A stretch of DNA of 64,000 bases from Bacteroidales bacterium (lineage in GTDB: Bacteria; Bacteroidota; Bacteroidia; Bacteroidales; UBA932): NCBI GenBank assembly GCA_017616655.1, contig JAFZXU010000060.1, positions 26,472 through 90,471 on the forward strand, given 5' to 3'. Of this stretch, positions 44,443 through 56,751 are shown in pieces. A program made the translations under genes and the position numbers. Position 1 is the first letter of the stretch, and each line of letters opens with the position of its first letter. The notes under the pieces were generated by a model. The model saw only the letters and a program-made list of their open reading frames with translations, searched no databases and was not told where the DNA came from.

Positions 44443-44458
44443 TCTTTTCATATCTTTG
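44427..44458 (+). promoter_or_regulatory. promoter of the yefM/yoeB operon
   Basis: TTTG (44427-44430), exactly 20 bp, TATCTTTG (44451-44458), 26 bp before the antitoxin ATG. Confidence 0.7.
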
Positions 44459-44484
44459 CGGTGTATTGAAAATGCACATAGGAT

Positions 44485-44742
44485 ATGGTTATTATCAATA
44501 GCAGGCAGTTTCGCGCTAATCAAAGCAGGTACCTTGAGATTGCATCTCAGGGCGGAGGTGTCATCCTTCGTTCCCGCAGTTTCGGGTCTTTCAAGATAGT
44601 CCCTGTAACTGAGGATGATACACTCATAACCAAAGAAGAGTTCTTCCGTAAGGTGGATGAGGGGATAAGGCAGATTGAAGAGGGGAAAGGGACAGTCGTC
44701 CATACCCCCGAGGAGTTGGATGAATTCTTTGAGAGCTTATGA
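44485..44742 (+). CDS. yefM: YefM/Phd-family antitoxin
   Basis: 85 residues. The Phd/YefM N-terminal DNA-binding fold reads VIINSRQFRANQSRYLEIAS, followed by VILRSRSFGSFKIVPV, and an acidic C-terminal toxin-binding tail (EEGKGTVVHTPEELDEFFES). It neutralises the YoeB toxin whose gene overlaps its stop by 4 bp. Repression of its own promoter through the upstream 12-bp repeats is likely. Confidence 0.88.
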   Translation: MVIINSRQFRANQSRYLEIASQGGGVILRSRSFGSFKIVPVTEDDTLITKEEFFRKVDEGIRQIEEGKGTVVHTPEELDEFFESL

Positions 44743-45014
44743 TTTATGAAATAACGATCTCTCCGCAGGCGAAAGAGGATCTTCGAAAACTAAAGGAAAA
44801 CGAACCATGGGCTTTCAATAAAGCCAGAAGGATAATTCAGGAATTACAGTTTCATCCGAGAAATGGAACAGGCAAGCCGGAGCCGTTGTCGGGTAATCGT
44901 TCCGGACAATGGTCCAGGCGTATTACTCAGAAACACAGACTTATTTATTCGATTCTTGACGATGTCGTAAAGGTGTACGTGCTCTCCTCTTGGGGGCATT
45001 ATGGTGATAAGTAA
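44739..45014 (+). CDS. yoeB: YoeB/Txe-family ribosome-dependent mRNA interferase
   Basis: 91 residues with the RelE fold in Txe/YoeB form: ISPQAKEDLRKLKENEPW, GTGKPEPLSGNRSGQWSRRI, and the catalytic C-terminus KHRLIYSILDD, VYVLSSWGHYGDK. YoeB cleaves mRNA in the ribosomal A site. ATGA overlap with yefM is typical. A palindromic repeat region begins just after its stop. Confidence 0.92.
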   Translation: MIYEITISPQAKEDLRKLKENEPWAFNKARRIIQELQFHPRNGTGKPEPLSGNRSGQWSRRITQKHRLIYSILDDVVKVYVLSSWGHYGDK

Positions 45015-45024
45015 CCTTTTCGTC

Positions 45025-45110
45025 ATGCCCGACCTGATCAGGCATCTGTTAGCGGAGGCGGGACCCTCAATGCTCGTCACTCCCGCGGAGGCGGGAGTCT
45101 CAATCTTCGT
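45025..45110. repeat. REP-like palindromic and tandem repeat
   Basis: An ATGCC/GGCAT inverted repeat (45025-45045) around the 10-bp palindrome CCTGATCAGG is followed by two direct copies of a 26-bp unit (45052-45077 and 45085-45110; begin GCGGAGGCGGGA, 22/26 identical). The second forms ACTCCCGC-GGAG-GCGGGAGT with the preceding bases. It fills the gap between yoeB and the converging lipoprotein and runs into that gene's stop codon. Confidence 0.7.
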
Positions 45111-45918
45111 GGGATTTCTCGGATACAATCGGCAATTCTTGCTCAAATACTATCAGATCGCCTTCCTGGGTGACGGTTACGCATTGTTTGTCAAAGAAGA
45201 TAGAGGAACCGTTTACGAGGTTGTTGAAACGCTTCGGAGAGTAGATAACCAACTTCTTTTCGATAACTTTTTCGCCTTCGTCGGATGTGAGCTTATGACT
45301 CTCCTCGAGAAGACTGCATTTCTCGTCAAAACGCCAATTCAGCCAGTTCTCCAAAGAGTCTGCAAAGGCAGCGGACTCTTCTGAGAACCCTTCCTTTAGG
45401 ACAATCGGGTATTCGACTGTTTCTCCTTCAAGATGGTTCTCCCGGTCGACCTTTATACACACTTTCTGGACGGAAGTGTCTGTAAAGGAATACTTTATAA
45501 GGCTGCCTCCATCGATGTCACAACGCCAGTCGCCTTCATAAGGATTATCAAAGCGCATTTCTGCCAGATGATTTCCGAACTCGGCATAATTGGAATATGT
45601 TCCGTACTCGAAGACTCCTGGGGCAATTTCGATTCCCATTCCCATAAGAGGGTCGAAGTACTCATCCGTTTTCAATGATAGAATCATCTCCCCGTTTTCA
45701 TCAGTTGTAACCGTAAAGGGATAATCAAGATAACTCCCTATCTCTTCCGCCGTCAGCGCCCTCCGCGACCCTTCGATCTCCGGCGCCTCCCATTCGTGAG
45801 AATACGGCCTCAGCCTGTCGAAAGAGTTACGGCACGAAGTAGTCAATAATATGGTCAAGATTCCGGTGAGAAGGGCCAGAAGCGGAGTAACGTAGTGTTT
45901 ATGGTTAAGTGAGGTCAT
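45100..45918 (-). CDS. hypothetical lipoprotein
   Basis: 272 residues. Lipoprotein signal: LLALLTGILTILLTTSCRN. The body is acidic and beta-rich (YPFTVTTDENGEMILSLKTD, FEYGTYSNYAEFGNHLAEM) with no family I recognise. A TACCTTTG box (45942-45949, minus strand) lies 23 bp before the ATG. Its last codons come from the neighbouring palindromic repeat (ending SEKSHED), so the present C-terminus may be recent. Accessory gene at the left side of the island. Confidence 0.65.
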   Translation of the reverse strand: MTSLNHKHYVTPLLALLTGILTILLTTSCRNSFDRLRPYSHEWEAPEIEGSRRALTAEEIGSYLDYPFTVTTDENGEMILSLKTDEYFDPLMGMGIEIAPGVFEYGTYSNYAEFGNHLAEMRFDNPYEGDWRCDIDGGSLIKYSFTDTSVQKVCIKVDRENHLEGETVEYPIVLKEGFSEESAAFADSLENWLNWRFDEKCSLLEESHKLTSDEGEKVIEKKLVIYSPKRFNNLVNGSSIFFDKQCVTVTQEGDLIVFEQELPIVSEKSHED

Positions 45919-46091
45919 AAATAGCTGATATTATATTAATACAAAGGTAGTAATTGTAGAAATATAGTGCTATTCTAATGACAGGTCTATGAAATGAACC
46001 ATTGAATAAGCTTTGAGTTGTGCGGATGAACTGCACATTTTGCATGTCTATAAAGCAATTATTCTTATATTTGTCAAGTTATTGTTTATTT

Positions 46092-47159
46092 ATGGCCGGC
46101 AACAAACACGCTCTGACTCGTTATCGAATTCTGGATGCCTGTTTCAGCAACTCGATGAAAAAGTATTATGCCGAGGACCTCATCAAGAAGTGCAATGAGG
46201 CCCTGGTTGAATACTATGGAAAAGAAGAGTCTGGCATTAGTCGCCGCACTTTTTTTGACGACCTGAACGACCTGGATGAGATAGTCGGAGAATATGGGGT
46301 TGAGATCCTTCGCCTCAACGACGGCCGCAAGAAGTACTACCGTTACGACAAAGAGGGTTTTTCTCTCTTCACTAAAGGTTTTACTGAGGACGAACTTCGG
46401 GTATTGAAAGAGAATGTCCAGACACTTCAACGGTTTAAGGGCCTTCCCACTTTCCAGTGGATGGACTCTTTGGTCAATAAACTGGAGGACAAACTGACGA
46501 ATAAATCCTCAGTCGGTGATATCCTTAGTTATGAAGAAAATACCGGTTATGTGGGTATTGAGTGGCTCAAGGATGTGTTTGACGCAATTATCGGTCAACA
46601 ACCTATCCAGGTTGACTATCGCAGTTTTGAGGACAAGGAGTTCCACTGGACAATCCATCCTTATTACATCAAACAGTATAATAATCGCTGGTTTCTGATT
46701 GGTTATAATCCAGAGTACGAAGGCCTGTCAAATGTTCCTCTTGACCGTATAGACGATATCATTCCGCTTCATATAGAGTATATTCCAAATACTGACATCG
46801 ATTTCGACCAGTATTTCAGTAACGTTATTGGCGTAACAGTCAGGAAGGAGAAGCCCGAGCCCATCAAACTCCGCTTCACTCCTTCTCGGCTACATTACGT
46901 TTTAACAAAACCGATTCATCATTCTCAGAAATGCTCGAATGCTGAAGAGGGTATTGTCACGCTTGACTTGATCCCCAATCGGGAATTCGAGGCATTATTG
47001 CTTTCATACGGGCCTGACGTAGAGGTTTTAGAACCAGAATCGCTCAGAAAGCTGGTTCGAGAGAAAATAGAACAATCCTATAAGAAGTATTGTTTCGTGC
47101 AGACTGGCTGCACAACTTCGCCATACCTTTGCACCGTCGAAACCAAAAAAGGAGAATGA
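46092..47159 (+). CDS. HTH-WYL transcriptional regulator
   Basis: 355 residues from ATG 46092 (MAGNKHALTRYRILDACFSN). A TATATTTG box at 46066-46073 precedes it, and an upstream ATG before the box is rejected. The N-terminal winged helix (GISRRTFFDDLNDLDEI) precedes a WYL domain (about 185-255: PIQVDYRSFEDKEFHWTIHP, RWFLIGYNPEYEGLSNVPLD) and a WCX-type C-terminus. WYL regulators such as BrxR and CapW control defence operons by ligand or nucleic-acid sensing. The 3' end (CTTSPYLCTVETKKGE) overlaps the TACCTTTG box of the next gene, which is the expected target. Confidence 0.88.
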   Translation: MAGNKHALTRYRILDACFSNSMKKYYAEDLIKKCNEALVEYYGKEESGISRRTFFDDLNDLDEIVGEYGVEILRLNDGRKKYYRYDKEGFSLFTKGFTEDELRVLKENVQTLQRFKGLPTFQWMDSLVNKLEDKLTNKSSVGDILSYEENTGYVGIEWLKDVFDAIIGQQPIQVDYRSFEDKEFHWTIHPYYIKQYNNRWFLIGYNPEYEGLSNVPLDRIDDIIPLHIEYIPNTDIDFDQYFSNVIGVTVRKEKPEPIKLRFTPSRLHYVLTKPIHHSQKCSNAEEGIVTLDLIPNREFEALLLSYGPDVEVLEPESLRKLVREKIEQSYKKYCFVQTGCTTSPYLCTVETKKGE

Positions 47160-47161
47160 CT

Positions 47162-49636
47162 ATGGCACAGAAGAACACCACTACCGCACTTTCCGCTAAC
47201 GCTAAGGCTATCGTTGACGCCTATATCCACCAGAACATTTTTGAACCTCATCGGGCCAAAGCTCTTGTGATTGGGCTCTACTCCCGTAGAAAGAATGCCA
47301 ATCAGGAGATTATTTCGGTATTAAAGGAGAGTATCCCTACATATCCTCTTTCTTTTACTGAGGAAGAATTCGCAATACTTGATAAGGAGTATAATGAAAT
47401 TGTGAAGTATTGCCACAATTTCATCGTTGGTCTTGAAAAGGCTGAGGTTAATGCCGGAAATGTACATTTCCCCTCCGAATTGGTTGAGCTTTGTTCGAAG
47501 ATAATCGCGAGCACGGAAGAAGACTCTTTATATCTTCCATTTGCTGGCTATTGCGATATGGCTTTTGCTCTCGAAGCAAAATCTGTTTCCGGCTTTGAAG
47601 CCAACTTGAGTTCTGTTGCATTTAGCAAGATCTTGTTTGATGCCTACGGAATCAACGGTGCAATCTCCAGCAGCGATACTTTTGCGCCGAAGTTCGAGGG
47701 TGGGGAATACTATGACCACATCATATCCTTCCCGCCTCGTCTTTCTTCCAAGGATAACAGGCAGATTGCCCAGTATACGCTTGATCTTCTCAGGGGGGGA
47801 CTATCTGACGGCGGTGATATGAGCCTCATTCTTCCCCAAGGTGATTTGTCCTCTTTACACTGGACCTCTTTCCGGCGTTACCTTATGGAGAACAAGACGA
47901 AGTTCAACGTCTTGACTATCTCTCTTCCCGCCGTTTTTATGCCAGTTACGGGCGTTAAGTACAGCCTTATGTTTATCGAGAAGAGAGAGAATCCTGACGG
48001 TACCTTCTTCTTCATGGATGCCGATCGCCAGGAATTCTTCACTGTCTCCAAAGAGAATCGCAAGCAGCCGCAGCTGAAGGTTGAATCCATTCTGGAGTCG
48101 CTGAAGGTCCGTGACGAGAGGTATGTTCGCGAGATCGACACGGAGAATAATTTCCTTGTGAATTATCATTCGTTTTCACCATCCAGATGTTTTGTTTATA
48201 ATGATCTTCCTAAACTAACAGATGGTGCTGATTATTTCAAACTGGGAGATCTTGTTGATGATCTTCGAGAGGAGGGATGTATGGATAGCGATTTTGAGAT
48301 GCAGGGTTTACCCCAACGCTATGTTCGAACAAGTCATTTGTTTGATGATTATATGAGTTGTTCTATTGATTATGATGCCATTTCTCTAGCACCTGATCAC
48401 TATAATTATTTTCCTTCAGTTTATTCAGCATATGCAAATGGAGGTTTTGCCGCCTATGTGAATGGCACAATTAAGGTCGGACAAATATCTGGGATGTACA
48501 ATCCTAATGGTTTCTTTACTAATAATCCTCATAGCAATTCAAAACTAATCGGTGTCGATCCATATGTTGCACATTTTGCGCCGAAAAGATATGGGAAAGC
48601 GCAACTTGATTACGTTTTGAGAGAACTCACAAAGCAATACGTCATTCAGCAGGCTAAGAAGCTAGCTGTTGGAACCGTAATGCAGCAAATGAGGAGCGAA
48701 GACTTCTTCAAATTGAAGATTGCGGTTCCTTCTATTGAGCGCCAGGATGAGATCTTGAAACAGGATCGTATCGCTGCTGTTGAAAAGGCGGGTGTCAAAG
48801 TGGATGAACTGAACGAGAAATTCCGTAAGGACATCCATATGATGAAACACGCGCTTGGGCAGACTGTCTTTAATCTGTCCAACTGGATGCAGGTACTTAA
48901 CCAGGCACGCAAAAAAGGGAATGGAATCCTGGATGAAAAAGCACAAATTGGTGGTCTTGTAAAAGTCAGCACCGGGGAGGTGTTCGATAATATCGAGATT
49001 GCCATTAAGGTCTTATCTCGTCAGGTGTCATCTTTTGATGTTGGATACGGCATGAAAGTTAGTCAATTTTCTTTGGCTGACTTTATAGATAAGTACATTG
49101 AAACGCATCCGCGTCCCAATGTGAAATACGACTTTGCATCTGCCCAGTATCGCGCGGATTACGAGGTCCCTAATGTAGATGTTGATGATTCCGATCCAAA
49201 TAACTTGAAGGTTATTGAGATTCCTGGAGAACCGGTTGTGCTGAAGGGCGAAGCCTTGGACTATGTGGAGTTCCCGGAGGAGGCCCTTTCTATTATCGTG
49301 GACAATATCGTCTCTAATGCAGTATCCCATGGTTTTAAGGACCCCGAGAAAGTGTACACAATCCACTTTGAGTTCAAGCCTGAAGGGACGAGTTACATTC
49401 TCTCTATCTCAAATGATGGCGAGCCTCTGCCAGCAGACAAGGATCCGGAAGACGTCTTTGTCTTGGGACACACTTCAGGAGGTGGAGATCATGCCGGCAT
49501 AGGCGGCTATCAGGTCCGCAGTCTCATGGAGGATTTTGGCGGAAAGGCCGAAATCGTCAGTACTCCTGGTGAAGAATTCAAGGTGACATATAAGCTCACC
49601 TTCACCAAAACTAATCTCATTGACCTGACACTGTAA
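47162..49636 (+). CDS. HsdM/HsdS-like module fused to a histidine-kinase ATPase domain
   Basis: 824 residues from ATG 47162, with AAGGAG 9 bp upstream. Residues about 105-275 resemble N6-adenine methyltransferases of type I systems: LYLPFAGYCD at motif I, HIISFPPRL where NPPY belongs, LPQGDLSS, LTISLPAVFMPVTGVKYSL. The SAM and catalytic motifs are degenerate. Residues 340-540 look like a specificity-subunit repeat (FFKLKIAVPSIERQDEILKQ). A helical stretch with KDIHMMKHALGQTVF (His559, His563) resembles a DHp helix. Residues 700-815 are a HATPase: N box IIVDNIVSNAVSHGF, G1 SNDGEPLP, G2 HAGIGGYQV. The receiver gene follows 4 bp later. I infer DNA recognition coupled to phosphorelay. Confidence 0.75.
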   Translation: MAQKNTTTALSANAKAIVDAYIHQNIFEPHRAKALVIGLYSRRKNANQEIISVLKESIPTYPLSFTEEEFAILDKEYNEIVKYCHNFIVGLEKAEVNAGNVHFPSELVELCSKIIASTEEDSLYLPFAGYCDMAFALEAKSVSGFEANLSSVAFSKILFDAYGINGAISSSDTFAPKFEGGEYYDHIISFPPRLSSKDNRQIAQYTLDLLRGGLSDGGDMSLILPQGDLSSLHWTSFRRYLMENKTKFNVLTISLPAVFMPVTGVKYSLMFIEKRENPDGTFFFMDADRQEFFTVSKENRKQPQLKVESILESLKVRDERYVREIDTENNFLVNYHSFSPSRCFVYNDLPKLTDGADYFKLGDLVDDLREEGCMDSDFEMQGLPQRYVRTSHLFDDYMSCSIDYDAISLAPDHYNYFPSVYSAYANGGFAAYVNGTIKVGQISGMYNPNGFFTNNPHSNSKLIGVDPYVAHFAPKRYGKAQLDYVLRELTKQYVIQQAKKLAVGTVMQQMRSEDFFKLKIAVPSIERQDEILKQDRIAAVEKAGVKVDELNEKFRKDIHMMKHALGQTVFNLSNWMQVLNQARKKGNGILDEKAQIGGLVKVSTGEVFDNIEIAIKVLSRQVSSFDVGYGMKVSQFSLADFIDKYIETHPRPNVKYDFASAQYRADYEVPNVDVDDSDPNNLKVIEIPGEPVVLKGEALDYVEFPEEALSIIVDNIVSNAVSHGFKDPEKVYTIHFEFKPEGTSYILSISNDGEPLPADKDPEDVFVLGHTSGGGDHAGIGGYQVRSLMEDFGGKAEIVSTPGEEFKVTYKLTFTKTNLIDLTL

Positions 49637-49640
49637 GAGT

Positions 49641-50942
49641 ATGGAAGAGATTATTTATAAAGTCCTTTGGATAGACGACCAGCCTGAAATCGTTCAAGGT
49701 TATCAACTCCTTGCCGGTCTCAGGAACATTCAGCTGATTCATTTTGAAAACTGGAAGGATGCTCAACCCACTCTGGAGAGAGAGTTCGGGGAGCTGACTG
49801 CCATTATCTTGGATGCCAACTGCAAACTGGATGCATCCCAGCAGGCACCATCGGAGAGGTTCCTCGGAAATGTGCTTTCTTCATTGATGAAGATGTTCGG
49901 CGATCGACATCGTGAAATTCCCTGGTATATCCTTTCTGCAGGTACGATGACCAACTTTGATACAATTACCAATGTTCTCATCAGTGAAGATCGCCGCTCT
50001 CGGGAAGCGGACTGGGGAGAGACTGTTTATTATAAAGACAAAATCGCTTCTCAGAAAGAGCAGAATGCACTTTTTGAGAACATTATCCGCACTGGTAACA
50101 GCCAAAGCAATAATATAGTTCTCTATCGTCACCGGAGTGCTTTCGAGTACATGGGACAGGACGCTCTCATCAGTGATGAGGCCCGCAAGATTATGTTGAA
50201 GGCTCTCGCTGTGTTGTATTATCCAGAAGAGAATCTCAATTATGAGTTTGCCGGCAATCCTATCAGAAAGGTCGTTGAATATATGTTCAAGGCGGCCTAT
50301 AAGTATGGGTTGCTGACTGATGCCTTTTTGGATGACAAAGGCTTTATAATTCTTTGGCACTCCATGGAGTATTTGTGTGGTATGGAATCGAAGAAGATTC
50401 CTTACCGCTTTGGGAAAAGAGGGGTCAAACCGGATTATTCAGATAATGAGAGTGTTCTTCCTTCAACGTGCTACAATACGTTTAAAGGGCTCTTGAACTA
50501 CGTCAATGTTGATTCCCATACGCTAGGTGAGGAAGATGACTCTCCCTATAAGATTGATGCTGAGAGCAAAGACCTCTTCTTCGCCTACGTTATTTTCCTT
50601 TGCCATGTCATCACCTGTTTCGGAAAGTATGTTGAGCGACACCCAAGTATTGAAGAAAACAAGGCCAAACTGACACCCACCGCTGATAAGAAGCTAGCCA
50701 AGGAGCCCCAGGTAACGAAGACGGCTGTGGAGTTTATTAAAAATGAGACTGCGGCCTCATTCATTGGCAAAGAGTTTACTGCAATCAACGCAGGAAGTTT
50801 TCTTACTCTTGGAGGTTGTAAGGTCTCTAAAGACTTGGGGGTAAAAATGCTCCAGCGTGCTCGTATCGACGAAGTAATCGCTAATACTGCAGACGACTCA
50901 AAGAAATATCCATTCATCGTAACAAAGGTCTCGCTTCTGTAG
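49641..50942 (+). CDS. response-regulator receiver protein with uncharacterised C-terminal region
   Basis: 433 residues. The N-terminal ~135 residues form a receiver-like domain: acid pair Asp12/Asp13 in VLWIDDQPEIVQGY, phospho-acceptor Asp58 in TAIILDANCKL, switch Ser99 in WYILSAGTM, and Lys132 or Lys134 after VYYKDK. The remaining ~300 residues are mostly helical with no recognised DNA-binding or enzymatic domain (LLNYVNVDSHTLGEEDD; tail FLTLGGCKVSKDLGVKM). It starts 4 bp after the kinase-like gene and is its obvious partner. The unknown C-terminal domain is probably the output. Confidence 0.72.
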   Translation: MEEIIYKVLWIDDQPEIVQGYQLLAGLRNIQLIHFENWKDAQPTLEREFGELTAIILDANCKLDASQQAPSERFLGNVLSSLMKMFGDRHREIPWYILSAGTMTNFDTITNVLISEDRRSREADWGETVYYKDKIASQKEQNALFENIIRTGNSQSNNIVLYRHRSAFEYMGQDALISDEARKIMLKALAVLYYPEENLNYEFAGNPIRKVVEYMFKAAYKYGLLTDAFLDDKGFIILWHSMEYLCGMESKKIPYRFGKRGVKPDYSDNESVLPSTCYNTFKGLLNYVNVDSHTLGEEDDSPYKIDAESKDLFFAYVIFLCHVITCFGKYVERHPSIEENKAKLTPTADKKLAKEPQVTKTAVEFIKNETAASFIGKEFTAINAGSFLTLGGCKVSKDLGVKMLQRARIDEVIANTADDSKKYPFIVTKVSLL

Positions 50943-50973
50943 CGGAAGAACGTGTTTGAACATGTGATTATTC

Positions 50974-51996
50974 ATGCTTGTAAAGAAACAGTTCATACAG
51001 CGCGAGAACGGAGAAATGGTCCCTGCCCAGTTCCCCGTCATCGTTTCCGCCAGTAGGAGCACGGATATCCCGGGCTTCTATGCTGACTGGTTTCTGCACC
51101 GGCTGAAGGTCGGCTATTCGGCCTGGACTAATCCATTCAACGGAGTTCAGTCCTACGTGTCGTATAGGGACACCAGGCTGATTGTCTTCTGGTCAAAGAA
51201 CCCTGAAACTCTCCTGAAGGACGGTGGTCTCCTGGACTATCTGGAGGAGAAAGGCATCCACTGCTATATCCAGTATACCCTCAACGATTACGTTGCTGAG
51301 AAACTAGAGAAGGGCGTTCCCTCTGTCGAGAAAAGGATTGACATCTTCAAGCGCCTGGTTGACCGGCTTGGCGTTGGGAAGGTAATTTGGCGCTTTGATC
51401 CGCTCATTTTGACGGACGAGATCAGTGTTCAGGATCTTCTGCAGAAAGCAAAGAACAATGGCGACCAACTAAAGGGCTACACAGAGAAGATGGTCTTCAG
51501 CTTCGCAGATATCGCTGCCTATAGGAAGGTTCGCGCCAACCTCGTCAACAACAATGTCCACTATCGTGAATTCACTGAACAGGATATGCTGGAGTTCGCT
51601 GCTGGTATCCAGCAGTTGAACCAGGATTGGGGCTACTCACTGGCCACCTGCGGAGAGAAGATTGATATTAAACAGTATGATATCGACCACAACAAATGTA
51701 TCGATGACGACCTGATGATTCGTTTCTTCTCGGATGATGCCCTCCTGATGGAATTCCTCGGCGTTGAGATCACCGGTGGAGACCTATTCAATCCAGAGAA
51801 GACCGTCATCAAGCACCGGAACAATAAGGATAAAGGCCAGCGCCAGTTCTGCGGCTGTATCGTCGGCAAAGACATTGGCGAATACAACACCTGCGCCCAC
51901 CTTTGCGAGTACTGCTATGCCAACAGTTCAAAGGAGATTGCGTTAAGGCACCTTCGTGAACACAAGTCCAATCCTTTCGGAGAGACCATCTATTAG
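50974..51996 (+). CDS. DUF1848 family protein, probable Fe-S enzyme
   Basis: 340 residues. DUF1848 pattern: FPVIVSASRSTDIPGFYADW, AWTNPFNGVQSYVSY, VFWSKNPETLLKDGGLLDYL, HCYIQYTLNDY, VIWRFDPLILTDEI. A Cys-rich C-terminus reads QFCGCIVGKDIGEYNTC, AHLCEYCYAN. The family is TIM-barrel-like and recalls radical-SAM/spore-photolyase relatives, with the cysteines likely binding an Fe-S cluster; no reaction is established. It lies 31 bp after the receiver gene and 4 bp before the helicase gene, so it belongs to the same transcript. Confidence 0.8.
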   Translation: MLVKKQFIQRENGEMVPAQFPVIVSASRSTDIPGFYADWFLHRLKVGYSAWTNPFNGVQSYVSYRDTRLIVFWSKNPETLLKDGGLLDYLEEKGIHCYIQYTLNDYVAEKLEKGVPSVEKRIDIFKRLVDRLGVGKVIWRFDPLILTDEISVQDLLQKAKNNGDQLKGYTEKMVFSFADIAAYRKVRANLVNNNVHYREFTEQDMLEFAAGIQQLNQDWGYSLATCGEKIDIKQYDIDHNKCIDDDLMIRFFSDDALLMEFLGVEITGGDLFNPEKTVIKHRNNKDKGQRQFCGCIVGKDIGEYNTCAHLCEYCYANSSKEIALRHLREHKSNPFGETIY

Positions 51997-52000
51997 CGAG

Positions 52001-54610
52001 ATGTTTACAGTTGACAATATCATATCCGACAGCCGTCGGCAGATAACCTGGAACCAGCGCTACGAGCTTAAGGAGTCCCTGAATCACGGGAAAAACATCC
52101 TTCAGACGGAGGATCAGCTTGCCGCATATCTCAGCTGGTATGGGGAAATGCACAAGGTCAAATGCAACATCGCAGCCCAAAACTTTCCTTACCAGGAACT
52201 CGGAATGCGGATTCATATTGTTGACTGGGGGTGCGGACAAGCTATTGCTTCACTTTGCTTCCTGGAATCGCTTGAGCAACGCGGCCTGCTTTCCTACGTG
52301 AGAAGAGTAACGCTGATTGAGCCATCCAAAGCCGCCCTCAGTCGCGCAAAAAGGAATGTTGAGCAGGCGCTCAACGGCCATTCTGTAGAGATTGTATGTC
52401 TCAACCAGAAACTGCCTTCTAATGGAACGGACAACGGGGCTTTTGGACTTAGCCTCAACGAGACCACCACAGTTCACCTTTTCTCCAATATCCTTGACTT
52501 GGTGGACATTAGCTTAAGGAAAACGGCCGAAGTGATTGAGAATGGAAAAGGAACACAATATGTGCTGTGTATGGGGCCGTGCAATGGGAACAAAAGCCGT
52601 ATTGATGACTTCTGTAGCTATTTCACGGATCGCGTTGAATTCTCCAATGTTGAGGACCGGTGCATAGCCCATACTTCTGACACCAACTATCCTATTACCT
52701 GTAAGACCCGCTGTTTTTTCATTCAGACGGGCCTCAGCCATATTGACACATCGTTCAGGGAGGGTAAATATGAAGCGGCCGGCGCTTACGATGATTATGA
52801 CACCGCTGGGCTTATCAAAAATGGCCTTCTTACTGAAAAACTCGTCCGTGTGTACAACCATATAAGCCGGAATATGTCGGCCTATGACCGGGTATATCTG
52901 AAGCCGGAAATGGGCGGGGATACGCCTGATCTGGTTATCGTTCGCAGGTGGAAGGGCATTGTCGTGATGAATGTCTTCGAGGGAGACTTGGGGAATTGTC
53001 TCTATGATGGAGAACGAGGCTTTGTATGCGATGATGTTCCGATGGCTTCACCTCTGTCAACGGTCATAGGATACTGTGAGAACATTCTTACAGAAAAATC
53101 CTCCACATTGCTCCGGAATGCCATCAAGGAAAAGAATGGTTGGTTTGCCGTTCGTCCTGCAGTATGGTTCCCGGACGCTACAAGGGTTCAACTCGGTTCA
53201 GTATTCAATACCGACAATGAGAAGAGCAAGGTCCTGATTCTTGGTGCAGAAGATTTCAATAAAGATATCCTGGATGTTTTGGATCTGAGACGTTCACGCA
53301 GCAGTTTCACGGATGAAGCCTATAACGAATTTATCGGTCAATTGAAAACCGGTTGGCACACATTCCGAGATGGAGACCCGTCTTTGAAACTTCGTCCGGA
53401 GCAAGCTCCTCTGGCAGAAAGCGTTGAGGGCCGTCGGCAGAAAATCAAGGGCGTTGCAGGTTCAGGAAAGACCCAAGTGCTGGCATCGCGAGCGGTCAAC
53501 TGCCAGCTTCGCACAGGCGGAAACATCCTGATATTGACCTACAATGTCACACTGGTCAACTATATCCGTTATCGCATAGGCAGAATTCCTGCCGACTTTC
53601 TTTGGAATAAATTCACCATTTCAAACTACCACAGGTTCTTTGTATCCCAGGCGCGAAATCATCATATAAAAATGAGCCTTACGTGCTTTGAGAATGAGGA
53701 TTTCTTCGAGTTTGATAAAGATGATTTGCCAAAGTATTCTGCCATCCTGATAGATGAGGTGCAGGATTATCAGTATTCCTGGCTAAAGATCCTGGAAAAA
53801 TACTTCTTAGCCGAGAATGGAGAATTTGTCCTTTTTGGTGACGCAAAGCAAAACATATACAGACGTGCGCTGGATGAGCAGCACGAAATAAGGACACCAA
53901 TCTCCGGTAGATGGACCGAACGTCTGAATCAAGGACAGCGTTTTGACAATCCCAGGATTGCGTCTCTTGCCATGTCCTTCCAGCGGTATTTCTTCGCGGA
54001 TCAAGTAGCTGATGATATCCAGACTCAGTTGGAATTCGGGTTCGCATCAGAGAGAGATGTTTTCTATGAGACCTTCTTGGCAAACGCCACAGCAAAGGAG
54101 ATGGCGGATGCCTGTCTGAAATTGATTGCAGATAACAACCTAAACAAAGGAAGGACAGTCATTGTCTCCCAGACATATCCTCTCTTGAGGTCGCTGGAAC
54201 AGCAAATCCGGATTGCCCAGGGAAGTCCTTGTATGACTACATTTGAGACGCAGGAGGTGTATGACAAGATTTTGGCCGAGAACAATGGCGACACCAAAAG
54301 CGAGCACTTTATCGATACCATCAAGGATATCCGGGATAACAAGAAACTCCACTTCACCATGGATACTGAGCAAATAAAGGTCTCATCTATCCATAGCTAC
54401 AAAGGTTGGGATGCTGATAATGTCATATTGATCATTCAGCCGAAAAATGATTTCGAAGTCCCAAGCGAGGATTCTCCTGTCGGGCATCCCGAACTCATCT
54501 ACACAGCCATTACTCGAGCAAAACAAAATCTGTTCGTTCTCAATATGGGCAACTACATATTTGAGAACTTTTTTAAAGAAGCACTAATTAATAGGGTGCA
54601 AACAAGATAA
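52001..54610 (+). CDS. methyltransferase-like / NERD-like / SF1 (UvrD-type) helicase fusion
   Basis: 869 residues from ATG 52001, 4 bp after the DUF1848 stop; a longer reading overlaps that gene and is not needed. Residues 60-240 contain a class I SAM-binding signature (IHIVDWGCGQAIASLCFLES, VTLIEPSKAALSRAKRNV). Residues 300-400 resemble a NERD-type nuclease fold (TPDLVIVRRWKGIVVMNVFE), though the catalytic Lys is not evident. Residues 465-869 are an SF1 helicase: Walker A GVAGSGKTQVLAS (about 484-496), AILIDEVQDYQYSW, FGDAKQNIYRR, KVSSIHSYKGWDADNVILI, ELIYTAITRAKQNLFVL. Similar helicase-nuclease fusions are effectors in defence islands. Last gene of the cassette. Confidence 0.82.
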   Translation: MFTVDNIISDSRRQITWNQRYELKESLNHGKNILQTEDQLAAYLSWYGEMHKVKCNIAAQNFPYQELGMRIHIVDWGCGQAIASLCFLESLEQRGLLSYVRRVTLIEPSKAALSRAKRNVEQALNGHSVEIVCLNQKLPSNGTDNGAFGLSLNETTTVHLFSNILDLVDISLRKTAEVIENGKGTQYVLCMGPCNGNKSRIDDFCSYFTDRVEFSNVEDRCIAHTSDTNYPITCKTRCFFIQTGLSHIDTSFREGKYEAAGAYDDYDTAGLIKNGLLTEKLVRVYNHISRNMSAYDRVYLKPEMGGDTPDLVIVRRWKGIVVMNVFEGDLGNCLYDGERGFVCDDVPMASPLSTVIGYCENILTEKSSTLLRNAIKEKNGWFAVRPAVWFPDATRVQLGSVFNTDNEKSKVLILGAEDFNKDILDVLDLRRSRSSFTDEAYNEFIGQLKTGWHTFRDGDPSLKLRPEQAPLAESVEGRRQKIKGVAGSGKTQVLASRAVNCQLRTGGNILILTYNVTLVNYIRYRIGRIPADFLWNKFTISNYHRFFVSQARNHHIKMSLTCFENEDFFEFDKDDLPKYSAILIDEVQDYQYSWLKILEKYFLAENGEFVLFGDAKQNIYRRALDEQHEIRTPISGRWTERLNQGQRFDNPRIASLAMSFQRYFFADQVADDIQTQLEFGFASERDVFYETFLANATAKEMADACLKLIADNNLNKGRTVIVSQTYPLLRSLEQQIRIAQGSPCMTTFETQEVYDKILAENNGDTKSEHFIDTIKDIRDNKKLHFTMDTEQIKVSSIHSYKGWDADNVILIIQPKNDFEVPSEDSPVGHPELIYTAITRAKQNLFVLNMGNYIFENFFKEALINRVQTR

Positions 54611-54641
54611 AAATGATTGTTTTGTTGCGACATTATTATAA

Positions 54642-55136
54642 ATGACTAAGCATATCACCATGACCCACAAACACTTAACCATCATCTCCCTCGTTGCCGT
54701 CATTTTCCTGGCGGCGGGGTGCACCAGCGCGCCGAAGAAACTGGACAGGTTCGTTGAGAAGACCGAGATCAACTGCGACAATTACGAAACGGAGGACTGG
54801 GATAAGTCTATGCAGCAGTACAAAAAGCTGGTTGACGAGTACAAGAATTCAGACAAGGAGTACACCGATGAGGAGAAGAAAATGGCCCTCAAGGCGATGG
54901 GGCGCTATCATGCGTTGCTCATCAAGAAGGGACTCGAGAAGTCCGCTACGTTTATCGAGGAGTTTGGAGCGGCACTTCCGTCCTATCTCGATGGGATTCT
55001 CGACGGCATGAAGGAGAATACCGAAGGCTTCGGCAAGTCACTGGAAGAGATGTTCGACGGCGAAAAGATCGACAAGGCCCTTTCCGATTTCTCGGACAAG
55101 TTGGAGGAAATCTTCAGCGGGAAGGAAGAGAAGTGA
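54642..55136 (+). CDS. small lipoprotein (DUF6565-like), function unknown
   Basis: 164 residues from ATG 54642; ATG 54660 (MTHKHLTIISLVAVIFLA) is an equally good start. Lipobox: FLAAGCTSAPKK. The mature part is helical and highly charged (KYEN-rich, DEEKKMALKAMGRYHALLIK, SLEEMFDGEKIDKALSDFSD). Bacteroidales genomes hold many such helical lipoproteins, with no known role. It lies 31 bp after the helicase gene but is probably not part of the cassette's mechanism. Confidence 0.7.
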   Translation: MTKHITMTHKHLTIISLVAVIFLAAGCTSAPKKLDRFVEKTEINCDNYETEDWDKSMQQYKKLVDEYKNSDKEYTDEEKKMALKAMGRYHALLIKKGLEKSATFIEEFGAALPSYLDGILDGMKENTEGFGKSLEEMFDGEKIDKALSDFSDKLEEIFSGKEEK

Positions 55137-55145
55137 CTCAGCCTT

Positions 55146-55484
55146 CTATAGCTTGGCCAGGGCCTCCTTGTCCAGACCGGTACATTGGGCGATGGTCGCG
55201 AGAGGGATGTCATTGGCCTTCATGTTCCGGGCTGTCTCGAGTATGCCTTCCTTCTTGCCTTCCTCACGATAGTCATAAAGCGTTGCTTCGTATTCCCAGC
55301 TGTTCATGATAGCGTTTTTATAATCTTTGATATCTTTTTCCGAATAGAGGTCCAGGTCGGCTGCTTTGTAAAGACTCACTAAATAATCATCGTTCATCAC
55401 ATCCGGTCTGTCTTCACTAGTGCTCAAGGCCTTAAGAGCGACAGCGAATCGTCTTCTGGCCGTGAAGGCAAGTTGATGCCGCAA
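55146..55484 (-). pseudogene. Rpn-family (PD-(D/E)XK recombination-promoting nuclease) C-terminal remnant
   Basis: 112 residues matching only the C-terminal third of Rpn/transposase_31-type proteins: the YDYREEGKKEGILETARNMK helix, then ANDIPLATIAQCTGLDKEAL. Full-length members are ~280-300 residues with a nuclease domain, absent here. The upstream (5') side runs straight into REP-like palindromes starting at 55504, suggesting truncation by rearrangement next to the RAYT element. Confidence 0.6.
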
Positions 55485-55503
55485 AACCCCAGCATGGTAT
55501 AAA

Positions 55504-55584
55504 GAAGGCGCATGGCGGTAGTGATAGATTACTATTGAAGGGTGTTGCGTGCGCCTTCTGGGTCGAAAACGTGGAGAAGGCGCA
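55504..55584. repeat. REP-like palindromes, 3' side of the RAYT gene
   Basis: GAAGGCGCA occurs at 55504-55512 and 55576-55584; its complement TGCGCCTTC at 55550-55558. The last two form a 9-bp stem with a 17-nt loop. The same 9-mer words flank the RAYT gene on its other side. The remaining sequence to 55628 shows no gene. Confidence 0.75.
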
Positions 55585-55628
55585 GGCGAGATGCTTCAGA
55601 GCCAAGTCGCAGGGTATATCCTTGCGCC

Positions 55629-56525
55629 CTATCTGATGTATCTGAAGATTTCCTCTTCCGGAAGCCGGACCAAGGTCGCCAGTTGCCTGACGGAAAGGTT
55701 GTGATTACTCCGCAGTTGCTTCGCCAGGGCAAGTCGCTGTTCCCCGGATAGATTCTTGGTATCTGAAACACCGAAAGAATTCTGGCATTCTATTCTGCAT
55801 ATAATCATCGCCTCGTTGTCATCCAGCCGGATGCCCCTCGACTTCGCCATTTCCTGAAGTATTTCGTTGTCTTTATTCCGTCCTGAGGCCAGAAAGGCCC
55901 TGTAGCAGTTATGAGTCCGGTAAATCCTTTCGAAATGCTTGACATCGACATAGCTTTCGGGCAACAGGATTCCTTGGCATACCAGCCAATCCTGAGGCAC
56001 TTTCTTTTTTGAATGAAGAATCCGGGCCTGTTCCCTGGCAGATATCGATTCCAGTTTAACGGGGTGAACTATTCCTCTCTTCTTGTCGAAGTACCATATC
56101 GGGATATGATTTTCATCCCTGAAATACATTGATCCCGTGCCCCATTTGTAATCGAAGGGCATTACGGCCTTACCATCTTTTGTCGGCTGACAGATGACAT
56201 ATGTTCCGGCATTCCTCAGGTAGTCGGCATTGTCGATTGGAAATACTTCCATTCTGAATACTACTCCGTCCGCTCCGCCCCGGCTGGTGACAATGTGACG
56301 GAAATATGTTATTTGATAGCAGTTTGAGAACAGAAGACATTCTTCCAAAGAGCCATACCCTAATATATGGGGGTGCGAATCTTCAATCGAGAATGCCAGC
56401 ACGGTGAATCCTGAAGCAGCTGCGCTCACTCCGATAGTATTGAACGCAGCGTAATAATCGGTTTCAGAAACAATGAATCTGCGGGTGATGCGTCCGTCGG
56501 AACAGATGTGAAAATATCGCTTCAT
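55629..56525 (-). CDS. RAYT-like Y1 (HUH) transposase
   Basis: 298 residues. HUH motif in FSIEDSHPHILGYG (His-x-His) and candidate catalytic Tyr in DYLRNAGTYVICQPTKDG, with the family's following MPFDYKWGTGSMYF. N-terminal ITRRFIVSETDYYAAFNTIG matches the usual RAYT entry. The C-terminal ~40 residues are a helix-turn-helix (LSVRQLATLVRLPEEEIFRY). RAYTs are domesticated IS200/IS605 relatives that nick and mobilise REP palindromes; REP-like copies lie on both sides here. Complete, with normal start and stop. Confidence 0.82.
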   Translation of the reverse strand: MKRYFHICSDGRITRRFIVSETDYYAAFNTIGVSAAASGFTVLAFSIEDSHPHILGYGSLEECLLFSNCYQITYFRHIVTSRGGADGVVFRMEVFPIDNADYLRNAGTYVICQPTKDGKAVMPFDYKWGTGSMYFRDENHIPIWYFDKKRGIVHPVKLESISAREQARILHSKKKVPQDWLVCQGILLPESYVDVKHFERIYRTHNCYRAFLASGRNKDNEILQEMAKSRGIRLDDNEAMIICRIECQNSFGVSDTKNLSGEQRLALAKQLRSNHNLSVRQLATLVRLPEEEIFRYIR

Positions 56526-56584
56526 ACCTACCTCCTCTAATCTTTTTTTCGATACAAATATAATAGGTCTTGTCCGGAATTGTA

Positions 56585-56713
56585 CAAGGCGCAGAGTGTA
56601 TGCTCAGGAATCATTTATGAGAGTGCGGGCTTGCGCCTTCGCGGCCTCTAAGATGAGGAAGGCGCAGACAATATGCAGTCAAAGGAGGCGCGAAGGCAGT
56701 TCGATGCGCCTTC
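56585..56713. repeat. REP-like palindromes, 5' side of the RAYT gene
   Basis: CAAGGCGCA (56585-56593), TGCGCCTTC (56632-56640) pairing with GAAGGCGCA (56658-56666) and an inner CCTC/GAGG, a degenerate GGCGCGAAGG (about 56687), and TGCGCCTTC (56705-56713). These are the words found on the other side of the RAYT gene. The rest of the 226-bp gap holds no gene; a TATCTTCG box at 56738-56745 precedes the cbiH-cbiC ATG. Confidence 0.75.
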
Positions 56714-56751
56714 TGAAGAATTCTCGCTGAAATTGTGTATCTTCGCAGGAT

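Follow-up and report, generated by a model that had tools for sequence, protein, structure and literature searches.

The window analysed here, a stretch of 64,000 nucleotides of contig JAFZXU010000060.1 from a Bacteroidales bacterium, holds five open reading frames (ORFs) on one strand with gaps of 2, 4, 31 and 4 bp between successive genes. A sequence-only reading of this DNA had proposed the five as a single undescribed defence cassette. The five same-strand genes with gaps of 2-31 bp are borne out by the ORF coordinates; the single cassette resolves into two modules instead, and the five genes stand together only in the window among the stretches examined. Module A comprises a WYL regulator, a fusion of HsdM-like, HsdS-like and histidine kinase parts (MSK) and a receiver protein (REC), and module B a DUF1848 protein and a methyltransferase-NERD-helicase protein (MNH). 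The features are as follows:

46092..47159, + strand: WYL/WCX transcriptional regulator, 355 amino acids (Pfam WCX 2.4e-14, WYL 4.6e-11)
47162..49636, + strand: MSK, 824 amino acids; HsdM-like pseudo-methyltransferase, HsdS-like recognition/helix part and DHp/HATPase histidine kinase (Pfam, profile search)
49641..50942, + strand: REC, 433 amino acids; receiver (3-160, D13/D58/K132), helical HEPN-like candidate domain (160-346, R209-E213-H293) and a poorly modelled tail
50974..51996, + strand: DUF1848 protein, 340 amino acids, with a CAHLCEYC radical-SAM-like Cys motif (Pfam DUF1848 9.2e-87)
52001..54610, + strand: MNH, 869 amino acids; class I methyltransferase, NERD-like domain (degenerate E-x-K) and SF1 helicase (Pfam UvrD-type helicase; PADLOC; motif alignment)
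44443..56751, no strand: inserted island with both modules, between cobD and cobJ (empty site in loci L188, L191 and L194)

Altogether 24 MSK loci were examined; all are from Bacteroidota except one, which belongs to a 'Bacteriophage sp.' record. Besides the window, they came from a draw of 395 genomes across the phylum (12 matching places fetched, 8 of them MSK), a draw of 393 genomes across the order (11 loci, taken as matches spanning the HsdM and kinase parts or most of the kinase), two named genome contigs, the 'Bacteriophage sp.' record and a Myroides plasmid, whose three near-identical records were counted as one locus. Matches were obtained in 196 of the 393 genomes of the order draw, those listed beyond the 11 covering mostly the HsdM part, and since only part of these matches were examined, the MSK locus counts are lower bounds. 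The scan of genome contigs gave 12 loci, two of them full length (L059 and L060) and both from Bacteroidota, and the phage search gave one record with an MSK. No MSK was found in the viral contigs and none of the window's kind in the plasmids; in a plasmid search with an L102-type MSK, only the three Myroides records reached 80% coverage. The median pairwise identity of 23 aligned MSKs was 20%, the close pairs being L109/L110 with 70% and L031/L059 with 89%. Two 'Bacteriophage sp.' records, L031 (MT835483.1) and L139 (MT836254.1), carry module A and module B, respectively; because the MSK of L031 is so close to that of the Bacteroides contig L059, these records may derive from bacteria or integrative elements instead of phages.

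The architecture of module A is well supported. REC lies directly downstream of MSK in all 23 loci whose contig continues (the contig of L101 ends inside MSK, and this locus was left out of the count), on the same strand, between -26 and +15 bp away in 22 of 22 loci that could be tested and 4 bp away on the plasmid. Thus, of the gene-order recurrence that the sequence-only reading had proposed as a check, the MSK-REC order recurred in 23/23 testable loci, and the five-gene order was found in no other stretch examined. No ORF of the REC family without an MSK was found in the collected loci, most of which were gathered by searching for MSK. Of the 24 loci, 18 have a WYL gene of the window's family no more than 200 bp from MSK, in line in 15 and divergent in three; that of L102 is a fragment at the contig edge, the gene lies farther from MSK in L105 and L037, and it was not found in the MSK loci L033, L036, L109 and L110. 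This WYL protein is likely to be a repressor of the operon, and the WYL proteins BrxR and CapW repress defence operons (PMC12255303). In a separate stretch, at L132:7593-10882, a stand-alone NERD helicase is followed by a WYL gene of the window's family, with no MSK match in that stretch.

The window MSK matched the Pfam families N6_Mtase (6.1e-6) and HATPase_c (1.2e-8), with Methylase_S (E 0.12) below the cut-off, and the MSKs of L105, L036 and L102 exceeded the Pfam cut-off for all three parts. When a profile of ten MSKs was compared with solved structures, HsdM was matched on positions 10-417 (EcoR124II M, 7bst, 1.2e-40), HsdS on 521-589 (5ybb_D, 3.5e-9) and histidine kinases on about 577-837 (9m08_C 3e-7, others weaker). 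The DHp His, the N-box Asn and the G2 glycines are kept in 23/23 aligned MSKs (H563, N719 and G779 in the window). In contrast, methyltransferase motifs I and IV were both kept in none of the 21 MSKs with that domain, compared to 17/17 plain HsdM controls from the same searches (17 of 18 were scored, L085 being left out). These motifs read LPFAGYC and FPPR in the window MSK, and motif IV is kept only in L036 (NPPW) and L101 (NPPF), with an alignment that is uncertain in the most divergent rows. With its motifs broken, MSK was rejected as an active methyltransferase. Across the family, the kinase thus appears to be retained and methylation lost, which fits the expectation for a sensor. The proposal of the sequence-only reading that a two-component pair is built on a restriction-modification (R-M)-like recognition protein is upheld by these domains and conserved residues; the family-wide loss of the methyltransferase motifs, as well as a candidate HEPN-type output domain of REC, go beyond it. 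Some MSKs differ at the N-terminus: those of L105 and L108 carry a HARE-HTH domain, and in L109:4762-6963 and L110:3381-5615 an HNH-like domain (Pfam HNH 1.2e-4 in L110, over the cut-off, and 0.008 in L109, below it) takes the place of the HsdM-like domain and precedes the recognition-kinase part, with REC still next.

REC matched no Pfam family, and its predicted model shows a receiver fold in which D13 and D58 are invariant in 10 aligned rows and K132 is present in 9. In Foldseek, its top rows were PorX, but these matches cover the receiver domain only, and a PorX-type effector was rejected. In the C-terminal domain, an Arg and a His are invariant in 20/20 complete rows, and a Glu and the Ser preceding the His are kept in at least 90%, giving the order R-x3-E...SH (R209, E213 and S292-H293 in the window). 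The motif of RloC and PrrC is R-X3-E-Xn-(S)H (PMC2610378). The Glu-His spacing of 63-86 residues in the 20 complete REC rows, 79 in the window, lies outside the 36-52 of PrrC/RloC, and none of these rows has an Arg 4-6 residues before the conserved His (Rx4-6H). Structure comparison of the C-terminal model listed 2hsb (titled HEPN), 3mfn and 1ufb first (we take the latter two to be HEPN structures as well), followed by Csm6, all as weak likenesses; Foldseek gave no match at E<=0.001 in the PDB and viral libraries, and the C-terminal profile gave nothing credible against the sequences of solved structures (best E 0.21). In a profile alignment with RloC-type C-termini, R-x3-E paired with R-x3-E and His with His, at a score of 12.5 compared to at most 6.4 in 30 column shuffles; the RloC-type protein itself matched solved structures only in its ABC-ATPase parts. 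These comparisons of sequences and models weakly suggest that the REC C-terminal domain resembles HEPN folds, and homology to the PrrC/RloC nucleases is weakly supported.

We give an even chance to the interpretation that module A is a phosphorelay gated by a DNA target and switching a HEPN-like output, probably against phages. Module A would be a two-component system of the cytoplasm that takes its input from a DNA-recognition unit resembling type I restriction, with MSK reading a DNA target through its HsdS-like part and an HsdM-like domain devoid of catalytic activity. The helices that space the recognition domains of HsdS are predicted to run, in MSK, into a DHp dimer with the phospho-accepting His563. 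The right target, e.g. phage DNA with the wrong methylation, or an R-M complex that has been disturbed would trigger autophosphorylation of MSK, the phosphoryl group would be passed to Asp58 of REC, and this phosphorylation would free the HEPN-like domain with its residues R209, E213 and H293. The freed domain would most likely be an RNase that halts translation, like PrrC beside its type I R-M enzyme, and the WYL protein is predicted to hold the operon low until infection. A more far-reaching proposal, which we put forward only tentatively and regard as possible rather than probable, is that MSK, a sequence-specific DNA-recognition complex with a dead methyltransferase and a live kinase, represents a new class of immune receptor, in which foreign or wrongly methylated DNA acts via a His-Asp phosphorelay on an anticodon-nuclease-like HEPN effector and causes abortive infection without DNA cutting. 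If this is true, the HNH-like version in L109 and L110 would be a DNA-cutting form of the same receptor.

A rather unlikely but serious alternative is that MSK-REC regulates a neighbouring R-M system, in restriction alleviation or expression, with the pseudo-methyltransferase monitoring host methylation and REC acting as a non-catalytic, RNA-binding HEPN-like regulator of R-M levels. Ten of the 24 loci have type I R-M genes close to MSK: in nine, HsdM comes immediately after REC, with an HsdS-profile gene in the same locus, and the tenth, L032, has HsdR and an HsdM fragment. A type III pair is present in the MSK locus L104. This company of R-M genes counts for the phosphorelay interpretation as well; together with the WYL gene in the operon, that of type I genes speaks for such a regulator, but there are examined stretches in which module A has no type I R-M genes beside it, e.g. 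those of the window, L060, L103, L105 and L107, and no Pfam DNA-binding domain was found in the REC proteins scanned. Moreover, the Arg, Glu and His are kept across REC rows that are only 11-46% identical to that of the window, and therefore suggest an active site. It is less probable still, and in our view a distant prospect, that MSK-REC serves as a pair for general signalling, has recruited a DNA-binding input and governs responses to mobile elements or DNA damage and not phage defence. Such a pair would suit the mobilizable Myroides plasmid, which carries MSK-REC near an S24 peptidase, a Y-family polymerase and a recombinase, and the near-threshold integrase-domain match beside L103, but not the repeated company of R-M genes and WYL. 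The non-catalytic regulator is also favoured by the lack of the Rx4-6H motif in REC, since HEPN domains of that kind are regarded as RNA-binding (PMC3710099), and the general signalling pair by the fact that the role in defence is a prediction. That the five genes form one defence system in which MSK-REC controls DUF1848 and MNH as effectors is very improbable, and as a conserved unit this system was rejected: the genes share strand, short gaps and one insert, but no DUF1848 or MNH match was found in the stretches of 22 other MSK loci (some of them short), the annotated surroundings of the plasmid MSK show neither gene, and the other three loci with DUF1848-MNH (L129, L130 and L139) lack MSK.

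Module B is an independent neighbour of module A. The three loci just named hold near full-length relatives of MNH, with DUF1848 directly before MNH in L129 and L139; in L130 a single ORF separates the two. DUF1848 is likewise found ahead of further proteins that have this methyltransferase domain, immediately so in L136, one ORF away in L134 and two ORFs away in L138; DUF1848 plus a methyltransferase-domain protein recurs as a separate module, several of the partners having helicases. For the window MNH, the first PADLOC model was NERD+UvrD (1.7e-30) among the best 25 of 40 models. The methyltransferase motif DWGCGQ is kept in the window MNH and in three of these relatives, and the NERD-like E-x-K is intact in the stand-alone NERD helicases L113, L132 and L140 but not in the window, L129, L130, L139 and L131. 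A C-terminal, radical SAM-like CxHxCxYC cluster is present in 6/6 DUF1848 proteins compared, the radical SAM profile matches of the window protein being weak. Genes near DUF1848-MNH in L129 look, by eye, like ZorA and ZorB.

Both modules lie in an island of 12.3 kb that interrupts a cobalamin operon. In three of ten same-genus relatives (L188, L191 and L194), cobJ, cobL and cbiG come next after cobD, the aligned ends being about 60-100 bp apart; no cobJ was found in the fetched stretches of the other seven, of which those of L189 and L190 end early. MSK was found in one of 40 same-genus genomes, 13 of them at least 90% complete. Because cobD and cobJ adjoin in these relatives and MSK is so rare in the genus, the cassette represents an insertion into a position that some relatives have empty. 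The AT-richer stretch in a variable island described by the sequence-only reading was recovered, with a GC content of 0.44-0.50 in the five-gene stretch compared to about 0.55-0.60 on the flanks. Its toxin-antitoxin genes were recovered in part: a profile match confirmed a YoeB-type toxin gene at 44739-45014 in the same insert, and the YefM-like antitoxin gene at 44485-44742 gave a weak match only. The 298-amino-acid protein at 55629-56525, which it had called a RAYT, matched nothing in Pfam, PADLOC or NCBIfam; the same-genus relative L191 has a copy with 58% identity close to its cobalamin genes.

In line with the sequence-only reading, which had not recognised the gene set as BREX, DISARM, MADS or another named system, a PADLOC scan of 10 island proteins gave no signature gene set. 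The models matched were WYL, Cas3c-like WYL, MTase_I/MTase_II/Specificity, mad2/mad5 (weak), NERD+UvrD, GajB-like, helicase and RT-associated, those of the fifth gene being taken from its best 25 of 40. For MSK, the matches to MTase_I, Specificity_I, mad2 and mad5 were all weak, and those to the methyltransferase and specificity proteins of MADS, mad2 and mad5 (3.2e-6 and 3.0e-5), were accompanied by no other MADS protein among the ten. Compared to type I R-M, with which it shares the HsdM and HsdS domains, MSK has lost the catalytic motifs and gained a fused kinase, and no HsdR-profile match was found in the 64 kb window, HsdR being present in some relatives. The signals known for histidine kinases are mostly small molecules, light or the state of the envelope. 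Detocs reportedly uses a histidine kinase and a receiver in phage defence, but with a sensor that is not a DNA-recognition unit and a nucleotide hydrolase as effector. If our interpretation is true, the reading head of a restriction enzyme has been reused as an immune sensor, as the input of a kinase, and R-M, two-component signalling and HEPN effectors are joined in one minimal unit.

No model of PADLOC-DB 2.0.0 fitted the window REC; among ten REC members, only two models gave a match, each in a single member (E 0.0034 and 0.035); because such models match REC poorly or not at all, surveys relying on them could miss module A. The RefSeq labels of the parts on the Myroides plasmid are 'N-6 DNA methylase' and 'hypothetical protein'. 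No description of the module A combination was found in the literature searched, mostly without subscription papers and preprints, and its novelty is provisional. DefensePredictor lists HATPase and REC domains among predicted, unvalidated systems (PMC13092281), with which module A may overlap.

The closest known systems are PrrC and HEF_HK/Response_reg_2. PrrC is encoded in a type I R-M locus and silenced by the linked enzyme, and it is released when this enzyme is disturbed, being activated by a phage anti-restriction factor (PMC2610378, PMC3710099). PrrC and RloC share with REC the triad order R-x3-E...SH, but have a shorter Glu-His spacing and are regulated by an N-terminal ABC ATPase domain, where REC has a receiver. 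HEF_HK/Response_reg_2 (PF19191/PF19192) resembles module A in that a soluble histidine kinase-like protein and an adjacent divergent receiver are linked to R-M loci, whose control by this pair has been speculated; Proteobacteria account for 69.8% of its sequences, and the R-M is mainly of type II (PMC8011034). Its sensor is usually a paraMORC-type HATPase_c_3 (PMC8011034), whereas that of MSK is HsdM-HsdS, and four Response_reg_2 proteins examined lack the REC C-terminal domain. PF19192 had no match in this genome at E<=0.001 and PF19191 none over the cut-off in 18 MSK genomes, its sole match in an MSK being one of 11.9 bits in L105, and membership of module A in this family was rejected. Of the two, HEF_HK/Response_reg_2 comes nearest to module A, as a kinase and receiver pair near R-M loci.

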